Shown: positions 30,820-49,315 of the stretch, piece after piece
Numbering within the stretch: the first letter of the stretch is position 1
How the letters are laid out: every line of letters starts with the position of its first letter
Origin: Ferrimicrobium sp.
GTDB lineage: Bacteria; Actinomycetota; Acidimicrobiia; Acidimicrobiales; Acidimicrobiaceae
Direction of reading: 5' to 3'
DNA length: 64,000 nt
Assembly: GCA_022690815.1 (NCBI GenBank)
Contig: JALCZJ010000001.1
Location: 62,001 to 126,000, forward strand
Notes under the pieces: model-generated
Seen by the model: the letters and a program-made list of their open reading frames with translations, nothing else
Told to the model about the DNA's origin: nothing
The model's database searches: none
Made by a program: the position numbers and the translations under genes

Positions 30820-31533
30820 ATGGCTGGGAAAGTGTATGTTGAGCAGGCAGCGCAGGTTGACGCTGGGAAGCTGTATCTCCCTCGTGAGGCAGTAGCCCTG
30901 GTTCAGGCGATGAGTAAGGCGAAGTTTGACGAGACGGTGGAACTGGCCGTGCGTCTCGGTGTTGATCCTCGGAAGGCGGATCAGATGGTGCGTGGGACCG
31001 TATCACTTCCGCATGGTACTGGCCGCACCGTTCGAATTGCGGTGTTTGCTGCAGGTGAAGCTGCGGCGGAGGCACGAGACGCTGGTGCAGACGTCGTTGG
31101 TGCAGATGATCTTGTTGAGCGTGTTGCTGGTGGATTCCTCGAATTCGATGTTGCGATTGCTACTCCAGACTTGATGGGCCAGGTAGGTCGTCTCGGACGT
31201 GTGCTTGGGCCGCGTGGGTTGATGCCGAACCCAAGGACTGGCACGGTCACGATGGAGGTTGGCAAGGCTGTTGCTGAGTTCAAGGCGGGACGAGTTGAGT
31301 TTCGCACCGACAAAGTCGGCAACGTTCATGTTCCTGTAGGAAAGGTTTCATTTTCGGCAGCTGCGCTGTTAGAGAACTTCCGAGCCGTCATCGATGAACT
31401 CGCTCGCGCCAAGCCGGCATCAGCCAAAGGGCGCTACTTTCGGTCGGTTCACTTGAGTGCAACGATGACACCGTCGGTGGCCATTGATCCGAACCGGGTT
31501 CGTCTCCTCGACGAGGACGTGACCGCGGCGTAG
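30820..31533 (+). CDS. rplA: 50S ribosomal protein L1
   Basis: 237 residues from ATG 30820 (MAGKVYVEQ), with GGAG about 8 bases upstream; the frame is open upstream to 30784 but the extra residues do not fit. Conserved parts are [49 protein letters not shown] and [12 protein letters not shown]1 forms the mobile stalk at the E site and in some bacteria represses its own mRNA. Overlong in no part. Confidence 0.98.
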
Positions 31534-31729
31534 TTGCGGTAACGGCCGGTTACCTAGTACCGGTTAGCTAGTATGTAGTTCGCCTCGATTCGCTCAAGAG
31601 GTCCGGTGCTTATGCTTAATTCCCTTCGGGTGCCCGATGAAGCGATCTCTCCGAGTCAGGCATGACCAGCGAAGCCCGATCAGCGGTCGGGAATCACATG
31701 AAGTCGGGTATGACAACAAGGGAGAGAGA
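31534..31729 (+). other. rplJ leader, possible L10(L12)4-binding RNA
   Basis: A 196-base untranslated stretch before rplJ. It contains GGTAAC-GGCCG-GTTACC (31538-31554), a tandem 14-base repeat, and later CCCGA..TCGGG (around 31677-31692). In many bacteria the L10-L12 complex binds such a leader to regulate rplJL. I infer that role from position and structure; I could not verify the kink-turn. Confidence 0.35.
31546..31573. repeat. Tandem 14-bp direct repeat in the rplA-rplJ gap
   Basis: CCGGTTACCTAGTA (31546-31559) is followed directly by CCGGTTAGCTAGTA (31560-31573), 13 of 14 bases identical. It begins 13 bases after the rplA stop. Confidence 0.75.
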
Positions 31730-32260
31730 ATGATCGACAATCCACGGCCTGGTAAGGTTTCTGTGGTCGACGAGATCCGCGGGAAGCTGACAGATACCGA
31801 TGTGGTTTTTGTGACCGAATACCGTGGCCTCAAAGTGACGGACCTTCAAGCATTGCGTGCACAGTTGCGCGCGGTCAATGCCGAATACAAGGTTTTCAAA
31901 AACACTCTGACTAGGATTGCTGCCCAGAAGGCGGACCGAGAGGTGTTGGTTGAGCTCTTGACGGGACCGAGCGGCTTGGTCTTTAGCGGTCCAGATGCTG
32001 CGGCGACTGCAAAGAGTCTTCGGGACTTCTCCAGGACCAATGAGCAGCTCGTTGTCAAGGGAGCACTCTTAGGTGGGCAGTTGCTTGATCAACGTGCGGT
32101 GTTCGCGCTTGCGAGCCTCCCTAGTCGAGAGGTTCTCCTTGCTCAGCTTGCAGGGCTCATCGCAGCGCCGATGACCAACTTTGCCTCGGCCCTGAACGCT
32201 CTTCCTCGAAACGTCGCCTATGGACTCAAGGCGTTGCTTGATCAGCGTGAGGCGGCGTAG
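31730..32260 (+). CDS. rplJ: 50S ribosomal protein L10
   Basis: 176 residues from ATG 31730 (MIDNPRPGKVSVVDEI), preceded by AAGGGAGAGA. An upstream open frame to 31637 has no site and no family similarity. VFVTEYRGLKVTDLQALRAQLR, YKVFKNTLTRIAA and PSGLVFSGPDAAA are typical. L10 is the base of the ribosomal stalk on which L7/L12 dimers sit. rplL follows, but only after an unusually long gap with repeats. Confidence 0.97.
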   Translation: MIDNPRPGKVSVVDEIRGKLTDTDVVFVTEYRGLKVTDLQALRAQLRAVNAEYKVFKNTLTRIAAQKADREVLVELLTGPSGLVFSGPDAAATAKSLRDFSRTNEQLVVKGALLGGQLLDQRAVFALASLPSREVLLAQLAGLIAAPMTNFASALNALPRNVAYGLKALLDQREAA

Positions 32261-32302
32261 CCAGCGTTCAGCGCTTGGCTGTCGGAGCTGAGGTGGTAGC
32301 GC

Positions 32303-32386
32303 AGAGCTGGGTTAGCGTCACAGAGCTGGGTTAGCGTCACAGAGCTGGGTTAGCGTCACAGAGCTGGGTTAGCATCACAGAGCTGG
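32303..32386. repeat. 19-bp tandem repeat array between rplJ and rplL
   Basis: The unit AGAGCTGGGTTAGCGTCAC occurs head to tail at 32303, 32322, 32341 and 32360 (the last with one change), followed by a partial copy at 32379. Each unit can form a small GCT-GGGTT-AGC hairpin. There are no spacers, so it is not a CRISPR. It fills the middle of a 256-base gap in what should be a tight L10-L12 operon, so it will be part of the rplJL transcript unless a promoter lies after it. Confidence 0.95.
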
Positions 32387-32516
32387 CGCGATGCCCGTAG
32401 CTTCTTCGGCGAAGATCTATAGACAGTTCCTAGTTATTGAGTAGTTAATCGTTCTTAGTAAGTAGCACAACGTTGTAGTTGGCATGATCGTCCTGGTTGG
32501 ACACGAAAGGAAACTA

Positions 32517-32909
32517 ATGGCAGACGTTCAGGCAATGCTTGATCAGATCTCGGAGATGACCGTTATCGAACTCTCAGAGCTCTTGAAGGCTTTTGAGGAG
32601 CGGTTCGGTGTTACTGCTGCGGCTCCGATGGCGGTTGCGCCAGCAGGAGCGGTGGCCGGCGGGGGTGCCGGTGAGGCTGCAGCTGCGGCCGAAGAGCAGG
32701 ATGAGTTTGATGTCATTCTCTCCTCCGCAGGTGAGAAGAAGATTCAGGTGATCAAAGAGGTTCGAGCGCTCACCAACCTGGGACTTAAGGAGGCCAAGGA
32801 TCTGGTCGATGCCGCTCCAAAGCCAGTCCTAGAGAAGGTGTCCAAGGAGGATGCCGAGAAGGCGAAGGCGCAGCTCGAAGGCGCTGGCGCGACTGTTGAG
32901 CTGAAGTAA
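32517..32909 (+). CDS. rplL: 50S ribosomal protein L7/L12
   Basis: 130 residues from ATG 32517 ([14 protein letters not shown]), with AAAGGAAA upstream. The N-terminal dimer domain ([20 protein letters not shown]), an Ala/Gly-rich hinge, and the C-terminal factor-binding domain ([37 protein letters not shown]) are complete. The dimers recruit EF-Tu, EF-G and other GTPases to the ribosome. Two hairpins separate it from rpoB. Confidence 0.98.
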
Positions 32910-32930
32910 CGTTCGGTCTCGCGAGCTCTT

Positions 32931-32964
32931 GTCGTTTGCGCCTGGGATTTCAGGCGCAAACGAC
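32931..32964 (+). terminator. Perfect 14-bp hairpin after rplL
   Basis: GTCGTTTGCGCCTG (32931-32944) and CAGGCGCAAACGAC (32951-32964) pair perfectly around a 6-base loop. It lies 21 bases after the rplL stop. No T run follows, so it may be an RNA-processing or stabilising structure and not a true intrinsic terminator. Confidence 0.55.
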
Positions 32965-33027
32965 GTTGCGACACCAAAAGGCATCTATGCTGTATGTCGT
33001 AGTGTCTTGCCCACAACTGAGCTCTTG

Positions 33028-33070
33028 AAAAACTCATCTGAGCGACCTTGTCGCTTGCGTGAGTTTTTTT
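33028..33070 (+). terminator. Intrinsic terminator or attenuator between rplL and rpoB
   Basis: Outer arms AAAACTCA and TGAGTTTT enclose an inner AGCGAC-CTT-GTCGCT stem and are followed by a run of seven T. This is a standard rho-independent terminator shape, 31 bases before the rpoB start. Because rpoB has little room for its own promoter after it, it likely works as partial attenuator lowering rpoBC relative to rplJL, as known for the enterobacterial rplL-rpoB gap. Confidence 0.8.
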
Positions 33071-33101
33071 GTGTTTTAGGACCTCATCGAAGGAGTAGTA
33101 C

Positions 33102-36100
33102 TTGACCTTGCTTAACCGCTCGCCCCAGCGTTTTTCGTTCGCGAAACTTCCCCAAGTTCTGCCGTTACCCGATCTTATCGCCATTCAAACAGATTCCTTC
33201 CGTTGGTTTCTCGAGGAGGGTCTGGCTGAGGCTTTTCATGACATCTCGCCGATTGAGGACTACGGAGGTCAGCTCTCGCTGGAGCTAGAGTACGATCCCA
33301 ACGACCCAGATCTCGCCCCTTTTCCGAAGTACTCGGTGGAGGAGTGCAAAGAAAAGGATATGAACTATGCCGCGCCGATTTTTGTGCGGGCAAAGTTCTC
33401 CAACAAGAGTACCTACGAGATTAAAGAACAGATTGTCTTCATGGGTGACTTCCCGTTGATGACCGATCGAGGTACCTTTGTGATCAACGGCACGGAGCGT
33501 GTGATCGTGTCGCAGCTGGTGCGCTCACCGGGCGTGCTCTTTCAACCTGGGCGAGATCAAAAGACCATTGTGACGGCCACCATCAACCCCTATCGTGGTG
33601 AGTGGCTGGAGTTCGACGTGGAGGCTCGGCCTGGTCGCGATATTCAGGCCGGGGCGAGGGTGGCACGCAAGCGACGTTTGAGTCTTTTTACCTTGCTGCG
33701 TGCGGTAGGGTTCTCGGATCCTGGTGATCTCCAGAAGCTGGTGCAGCACTTTGACTTCTTGATCCCGCAATGGGAAAAGGAGGATCAGTCACAGACTGAA
33801 GACGAAGCTTTGCTTGAGGTGTTCAAGCGCGTTCGCCCTGGTGAGCCGCCGAATGCCGATGCTGCTCGCATGTACCTTGAAGGAGCATTTTTCCAGGCGA
33901 GGCGCTACGACCTAACTCGCGTCGGTCGCTACAAGATCGATAAGCGTCTCAAGCCTGAGATCGCACGGCTAGAAGAGATACTTGGACATCCGCTCGACAC
34001 TGATTACGAGACACCAGGTGTGCTCTCACGGGCCGAAGTGGTGGCGACGGCGTCGTACATGCTGCATTTGGCCAGTGGCGAGCTTGGTTACCGTTACGAC
34101 GACCAGGACCACTTTTCCAACCGGCGGGTGCGCAGCGTTGGTGAGCTGATTCAGAATCAACTCAAGATTGGTCTGTCCCGGCTCGAGCGCCTTGTTCGGG
34201 AGCGGATGACGACCCAAGACGTTGAGGCGATCACGCCTCAGAGTCTCATCAATATCCGCCCGGTGGTGGCCGCGGTGAAGGAGTTCTTCTCAACCAGCCA
34301 GTTGTCGCAGTTTATGGATCAGAACAATCCGCTCTCTGGCCTTGCCCACAAGCGTCGCCTCTCGGCGCTCGGGCCTGGTGGCCTTTCGCGTGAGCGGGCG
34401 GGCTTTGAGGTGCGAGATGTCCACTCGTCCCATTATGGCCGTATGTGCCCGATTGAGACGCCAGAGGGCCCAAACATTGGACTTATCGGAGCGCTTGCGA
34501 GCTACGCGAGACTCAACAAGTTCGGCTTCATTGAGACCCCGTATCGTAAGGTGGTCGATGGTAAGGTGACCGACGACATTGTCTACCTCACGGCGGATGA
34601 GGAGGAAGAGTTCGTCATTGCCCAAGCCAATGCGCGGCTTGATGCTGAAGGACGCTTCGTTGAATCGAAGATCCTGGTACGACGCGGTCCACAAGGTGCG
34701 GTGGTCAAGGTAGGGGTGAATGAAGTCTCTTATGGCTCGACTTCCGAGGTGGAGTTGGCAACCCCTGATGAGGTTGATCTGATGGATGTCTCGACCTCCC
34801 AGGTGGTTTCGGTATCGACCTCGTTGATTCCGTTCGTTGAGCACGATGATGCCAACCGTGCGTTGATGGGTGCCAACATGCAGAAGCAGGCAGTTCCGTT
34901 GATGATTCCGGAGGCTCCGTTTGTCGGGACCGGCGTGGAGGCACGTGCGGGTCTCGATGCCGGGGATGTTTTGGTGGCGAAGGGGTCGGGGTTAGTCACT
35001 GAAGTGACCGGCGACTCGATCGTTGTCGCCTACGACCGAGGGCAGACCGACGCTACTGGCATGGAGTTAGGCACCAAGCGATATCGGTTGGTAAAGTTTG
35101 AGCGCTCGAATCAGAATACCTGTTGGAACCAGCGTCCCTTGGTTGATCAGGGTGATCGGGTTGAGGTCGGCGATCTGTTGGCCGATGGCCCCTCCACGCA
35201 AAACGGCGAGTTGGGCCTTGGCAAGAACCTTCTTGTTGGATTTATGCCGTGGGAAGGGTACAACTTCGAGGATGCTATCATCATCTCCGAGCGTCTGGTG
35301 CGCGACGATGTCTTGAGTTCGATTCACATCGAGGAGTTCGAGACTGATGCGCGTGACACCAAGCTTGGTGCTGAAGAGATCACCCGGGACATCCCGAACC
35401 TATCGGAAGAGGCACTTGCTGATCTAGACGAACGGGGCATTATCAGGATCGGTGCCGAGGTGGGACCGGGTGACATCCTGGTTGGGAAGGTAACGCCAAA
35501 GGGCGAAACAGAGCTGACGCCTGAGGAGCGACTCCTGCGTGCGATCTTTGGTGAGAAGTCGCGTGAGGTGCGAGACACCTCGCTCCGAGTTCCCCATGGT
35601 GAATATGGGAAGGTGATTGACATCAAAGTGTTTAGCCGAGATGATTCCACCGAACTGCCCCCAGGTGTCAACCAGCTGGTCCGTGTCTATGTTGCGCAGC
35701 ACCGCAAAATCTCCGAAGGGGACAAGCTTGCTGGCCGCCACGGCAACAAGGGTGTCATCTCGCGAATTCTTCCCTTGGAGGATATGCCGCGTATGGCAGA
35801 CGGTACGCCGTTGGATATCATCCTCAACCCACTCGGTGTCCCGTCTCGAATGAATGTTGGTCAGGTTCTTGAAGGACATCTTGGTTATGCTGCCAAATGG
35901 GGTTGGACGCCCATCGATGCAAGTCATGGCCAGGTGCAGGGCCATAAGACACAGCCGCGTGCCATACCCACTACCTGGGTAGCGAGCCCGTCGTTTGACG
36001 GTGCCCATTGGGACGAGACCGAGGAGGCTGGTGGACTCCCCACCATCAAGGAGCTCCTCGTCAACCTCAATCCACAGTCATTCGATGGCAATCGTTTGGT

Positions 36101-48203: not shown

Positions 48204-48485
48204 ATGCCCAGAAGTCTGAAAAAGGGTCCCTTTGTCGATGATCATCTCCTCAAGAAGGTAGATGATCTCAATGAGAAGAACGAGAAGCGGGTCATCAAGA
48301 CCTGGTCACGTCGGTCTACCATTATCCCAGACATGGTCGGTCACACCATTGCGGTCCATGATGGACGCAAGCATGTCCCCGTCTACCTCACCGAGTCGAT
48401 GGTTGGGCACAAACTTGGAGAGTTCGCGCCTACCAGAACGTTCCGCTACCACGCTGGACAAGAAAAGACGGCGAGGAGAAGATAG
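48204..48485 (+). CDS. rpsS: 30S ribosomal protein S19
   Basis: 93 residues. [39 protein letters not shown] and [19 protein letters not shown] are canonical. ATG start 3 bases after rplB; the stop shares one base with the rplV GTG. Confidence 0.98.
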
Positions 48486-49315
48486 TGACACAGACCATGC
48501 AGGCCAACCAGGCTCGAGCCGTATTGCGGTATTTCCGTATGAGTCCTACAAAGGCTCGCCAGGTACTTGACCTCATTCGAGGCAAGTCGGCGGTCGAGGC
48601 TATTCGGACACTGTCTTTGGTGAATCGTGAGGCCAGTGAAGTTGTTGGCAAGCTACTGGCTTCAGCCGTAGCTAATGCGACCGTTCGTTACGGTCTCGGA
48701 GCTGACGAGGTCTTCGTCGCTCAGGCCTTTGCCGACGAAGGTCCTACGATTAAGCGGTTCCGACCGCGCGCTCGAGGGCGCGCGACTCGCATTCGCAAGC
48801 GCAGCTGCCACATCACGATTGTCGTCGAGGAGATGCCACTTGAGATGCGTCGGGTAGCGGCTGCGAAGAGCTCAGGGCGACAGAGTGCTCGGCGGAGCCA
48901 GCGTGTCGCCTCATCGCGAGCCGGTGGGCCACGCGTTAATCAGCGATCGCTCCCTCCGACGGACGAGGTCGTTCAACCGGATGAAGTGCTGCCATCCGAC
49001 GACATGGGTGCAGTCGTATCAACCGAGGCTCCAGCGGTTGACGCTGGGATCGAGGCCAGTGCAGTTGAGACCAGTGCAGGTGAGACCAGTGCAGTTGAGA
49101 CCAGTGCAGTTGAGACCAATATCATAGAAGGCAGCCTGGCTGAGGACAATGTTGGAGAAAGTGATGTTGTCGAGGGTGAGGTCGCCGAGGATGTAAGCGA
49201 TGCTACCGGTCAAGCTGAGGTGGCCCCCGACGATGAGAGTTCTGGCAAAGCTGCGAGCGTCGAGGAAGCATCGACAGAAGATGCCGGGGCGGATGAAGGG
49301 CAGGAGGACTCATAG
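48485..49315 (+). CDS. rplV: 50S ribosomal protein L22 with very long C-terminal extension
   Basis: 276 residues, over twice the usual ~110-120. The L22 core is normal: [20 protein letters not shown], the tunnel hairpin and [20 protein letters not shown], ending near residue 118. After a short basic stretch, about 150 residues are acidic and low-complexity (Glu, Ala, Val, Ser, Thr, Asp), including a 15-bp in-frame tandem array (49052-49120) that encodes ETSAV units. GTG 48485 overlaps the rpsS stop, and the rpsC GTG overlaps its stop, so the frame has not been broken. The extension would lie at the ribosome surface near the exit region; function unknown. Confidence 0.96.
49052..49120 (+). repeat. 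15-bp tandem repeat inside rplV
   Basis: GAGGCCAGTGCAGTT, GAGACCAGTGCAGGT, then twice GAGACCAGTGCAGTT (start points 49052, 49067, 49082, 49097), and a partial fifth at 49112. In frame it gives E-A/T-S-A-V/G pentapeptides. Confidence 0.95.

Follow-up and report, generated by a model that had tools for sequence, protein, structure and literature searches.

Does a tandem array lying between the genes for ribosomal proteins L10 and L12 act on L12 synthesis, or is it an ordinary repeat that the spacer tolerates? The array was studied in a window of 64,000 nucleotides of a Ferrimicrobium genome (GC content of the window 0.57), taken from a 2.54-Mb draft of 60 contigs that is 98% complete. Gene order around it is rplA, rplJ, rplL, rpoB (Table 1). 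The gene rplL is essential and normally highly expressed. Both rplJ (31730) and rplL (32517) start with ATG; the L10 stop at 32260 leaves a gap of 256 bases (32261–32516), in agreement with the initial annotation, and the array occupies 85 of these.

Table 1. Coordinates in the window of the genes, the array and the spacer elements discussed in the text
Feature	Position	Strand	Basis
rplJ, ribosomal protein L10, 176 aa	31730..32260 (stop included)	+	NCBIfam NF000955, E 3.5e-49
Candidate degenerate ancestral copy, immediately 5′ of the array	32284..32301	+	aligned by eye with gaps
Tandem array, 19-base unit × 4.5	32302..32386	+	TRF score 163; 4 full copies; 1/42 family genomes
rplL-proximal spacer part: short stem, GUCC...GGAC stem, Shine-Dalgarno stretch GAAAGGAAAC	32445..32516	+	seven-genome alignment, 83% mean column identity; stems predicted
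rplL, ribosomal protein L7/L12, 130 aa	32517..32909 (stop included)	+	NCBIfam TIGR00855, E 1.7e-43

The repeated unit, CAGAGCTGGGTTAGCGTCA, is arranged head to tail (TRF: period 19, 98% matches). Copies 1–3 are identical, copy 4 differs from them by a single G-to-A substitution, and the array closes with nine bases of a fifth copy; these are the four full copies and partial fifth first described, except that the true start is 32302, not 32303. Chance is excluded as the origin of the array: at up to three mismatches the unit has four matches in the window, compared with a mean of 0.01 in 100 shuffles, none of which reaches four. A whole-genome search at the same tolerance yielded no unit elsewhere, all four full copies lying inside the array, and the complete rplJ–rplL spacer matches itself alone in its own genome. 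The candidate ancestral copy adjoining the array is weak, since the best ungapped match to the unit within the 41-base upstream flank is 11/19.

Bacterial minisatellites, or VNTR loci, consist of contiguous direct repeats with a unit of roughly 10–100 bases, and the array has this form. No protein runs through it, because a period of 19 places TAG in every forward frame. A hidden protein was accordingly rejected: stops occur in all three plus-strand frames, and no frame of at least 30 codons on either strand contains the array.

Alignment with related genomes had been proposed at the outset, and the array proved absent from the relatives searched. A 26-base two-unit pattern at up to three mismatches was detected in one of 42 family genomes, its own, with one genome per species compared and 20 of the 42 having a completeness of 90% or more and a contamination of 5% or less. 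It was not found in any of the six genus mates, all of other species, nor in the 35 further family genomes covered by the search, many of which are incomplete drafts. TRF, applied to spacers longer than 20 bases together with 100-base flanks, likewise reported a 19-base array in this genome alone. The 13-base core of the unit has one further exact match in the genus, on contig C123 of genome G006, whose rplL sits on contig C150; this match is most likely due to chance. The near-identity of the copies and the lack of a two-unit match in the six genus mates or the other 35 family genomes support the earlier suggestion that the array is recent.

Dispersed and phage-borne elements were both rejected. 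The array is not a dispersed element, because its unit is found at one genomic place and the spacer matches itself alone; for a phage-borne element, the two-unit pattern gave no exact match in viral contigs, and the single genomic place stands against it as well. The MIRU of mycobacteria resemble the array as tandem units in intergenic gaps of an actinobacterium. However, MIRU are a dispersed repeat family present at several genomic places, whereas the four full copies of this unit all lie in one array.

The two genes had been regarded as normally a tight pair. L12 was found in 54 of 60 genomes, including its own, and gaps were measured at the loci of the best 30 of these 54, with its own genome counted twice (L001, L002) and one extra distant locus added; the nearest in-frame candidate served as the start codon, and single values are possibly off by some codons. 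In the six genus mates the gap measures 119, 116, 101, 112, 112 and 126 bases, in every case without the array; the gap is therefore long throughout the genus. Among the other 23 relatives, gaps reach at most 122 bases, eight of them being shorter than 35, and the lowest value is an apparent overlap of 11 in L026, where the start codon is uncertain, and the distant locus, from a MAG titled Candidatus Oleimmundimicrobium, has a gap of 23 bases. Tight spacing is thus seen in some of the more distant relatives, and this genus does not share it. The gap studied here is the longest among the measured loci. The array is not the sole reason for this, since about 171 bases remain without it, compared with 101–126 in the genus mates. 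Mycobacterial loci share the adjoining rplJ and rplL and a Shine-Dalgarno stretch before rplL, but PMC2904383 gives spacers of 36–69 base pairs for them, in contrast to the 256 bases here and the lengths in the six genus mates.

The seven genomes cannot be aligned over the 5′ half of the spacer, and the last ~65–75 bases or columns up to the rplL ATG are conserved. The array lies in the 5′ half, upstream of the conserved stretch. The latter contains two small predicted stems, one of them directly before the Shine-Dalgarno stretch. At the point where conservation begins, the spacer of L008 (genome G001) carries a perfect tandem duplication of 13 bases, TCATAGTAAGTAG, that is unrelated to the array; TRF also marks a weak 9-base duplication in the spacer of L016.

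We consider it very probable that the array is an ordinary young, lineage-specific minisatellite, generated through slippage within the variable 5′ spacer half and most likely neutral. We infer that a 19-base stretch of this fast-changing half slipped repeatedly (or recombined unequally) to give the array, that it is probably transcribed together with rplJ and rplL, and that it is neutral, no activity being revealed by the evidence. We propose that it is tolerated because it is located upstream of the conserved rplL-proximal stretch. Its likeness to bacterial intergenic minisatellites and VNTR loci comprises short near-identical head-to-tail units, lineage specificity and a non-coding gap; copy number at VNTR loci varies among strains, whereas the array is known from one genome of its species.

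An unlikely alternative is a cis-acting expression element, in which the units would act by forming RNA structures or providing processing sites, with copy number setting the L12:L10 ratio. The location between rplJ and rplL is consistent with such a role, and in front of rplL neutrality is not guaranteed. The predicted fold also allows base pairing between neighbouring units. However, the hairpins suggested by the initial annotation did not stand out from shuffled sequences: the whole 256-base gap folds with a z of 0.08, and the array alone with a z of −1.23, which is slightly better than the average shuffle and in this respect speaks against neutrality, although 22 of 200 shuffles equal or exceed this stability. 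A structured cis-regulatory RNA would be expected to fold beyond shuffles and to be conserved; the array does not fold beyond shuffles, and the search of the 41 remaining family genomes did not find it. At the gathering score, Rfam yields only four tRNAs in the window and no family over the array. The best-scoring hit there, to MIAT_exon5_2 on the minus strand (24.3 bits, cut-off 75), was taken as chance.

Spacers of at least 50 bases were folded in 22 genomes. Four of them, all from other genera of the family, fall below a z of −2 (L012, −2.47; L018, −3.35; L019, −2.30; L028, −3.68), and the six genus mates range from −1.27 to 0.24. Clear folding beyond shuffles in some spacers of other genera means that this gap is able to contain structured RNA in relatives, a point that also counts against the neutral reading.

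The earlier proposal that copy number tunes L12 expression is unsupported by the one prediction made, in which Shine-Dalgarno exposure remains flat at 0.51–0.53 across 0 to 8 in silico copies. Predicted exposure of the rplL start codon is 0.42 without copies and 0.46–0.51 with one to eight, peaking at four (0.51). This slight rise would favour a cis-acting element over neutrality, but the modelled difference between copy numbers is small and we do not read it as a signal. L10 has 176 aa in all seven genus members, and therefore gives no hint of a changed stalk. For mycobacteria, PMC2904383 proposes that the 1:4 ratio results from degradation of free (uncomplexed) L10 and not from unequal synthesis, which makes a spacer element unnecessary as an explanation of the ratio. 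Among the matches listed in a literature text search, no title concerns a repeat in the rplJ–rplL gap, and the spacer is not mentioned in the accessible portion of PMC4538822. The array shows no sign of controlling anything, and the function proposed for it is not supported.

It is very unlikely that the genus retains a long spacer whose last ~65 bases form a conserved RNA element controlling L12 translation by itself, with the array adding distance from rplJ in this species and thereby uncoupling rplL from rplJ translation. The predicted stems are weakly supported: across the seven genomes, 8 of their 11 pairs are invariant and one is changed on both sides, and the covariation score is reached by 228 of 500 shuffles. 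When the second stem was combined with the ribosome-binding stretch into one search pattern, 5 of 60 genomes gave a single match each, and all five are genus mates; the genome that carries the array and G005 miss the pattern, their loop being different.

Evenly spaced direct repeats upstream of a gene could also be iteron-like DNA sites for a protein acting on an internal rplL promoter. We regard this as highly improbable: a simple scan for the sigma-70 consensus, with other promoter types outside its scope, found no promoter of this type in 31400–33200, the unit is present nowhere else in the genome, and the array is not conserved in the family. A separate motif, TAGTAWGTAG, located before rplJ (31569) and rplL (32456), was rejected as not above chance, its three window matches at one mismatch being reached by 12 of 100 shuffles. 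An assembly error, conceivable in a draft of 60 contigs, is barely credible for an 85-base array inside a 153-kb contig, as ordinary sequencing reads are longer than that and the substitution in the fourth unit is not expected from a simple duplication error.

The neighbouring rplA–rplJ gap (31534–31729) contains a stretch that is strongly alike by eye in all seven genus members. It matches no Rfam family at the gathering score, nor at E values up to 5, and may represent an L10 leader that has diverged beyond recognition by Rfam. TRF reports a 14-base tandem pair in the same gap, at 31546–31573.

The neutral minisatellite reading can be set beside other repeats of the same genome. A survey limited to this genome covered 464,000 bases (18% of it), namely the window and twenty 20-kb stretches, a non-random choice because 17 of these are contig starts; it returned 31 TRF rows at a score of at least 50. 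Six of the sampled arrays have units of at most 24 bases, at least three copies and at least 94% matches: 15 × 6.9, 19 × 4.5 (the rplJ–rplL array), 15 × 4.2, 7 × 8.9, 15 × 4.5 and 15 × 3.3. Three of the other five were searched in the genus (15 × 6.9, 15 × 4.2 and 15 × 4.5), and each was detected in one of seven genomes, its own. Several arrays are thus private to this genome, the rplJ–rplL array among them, and the case for linking it to L12 is correspondingly weaker.

Two of the three searched 15-base arrays sit in long open frames. The L22 gene (window 48362–49312, plus strand), assigned by TIGR01044 over residues 53–155 of a 317-residue stop-to-stop frame, possesses a long C-terminal extension with a 15-base (5-residue) tandem array at 49052–49118, present in its own genome only among the seven of the genus. 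The 15 × 6.9 array (L046 13392–13494, contig C2 of genome G000) lies outside any open frame of at least 100 aa and is also confined to its own genome among these seven. A perfect 7-base array, GCGAGAT × 8.9 (L051 4562–4623, contig C7 of the same genome), is located inside overlapping open frames; since every gain or loss of a 7-base unit would shift the reading frame, this array could be a phase-variation site.

The rplJ–rplL array is mainly of interest as a potential marker for strain typing. It further demonstrates that large changes are tolerated in the 5′ half of this spacer, within a cluster of ribosomal protein genes. For studying L12 control in the genus, the conserved stretch beside rplL is a better target than the array.
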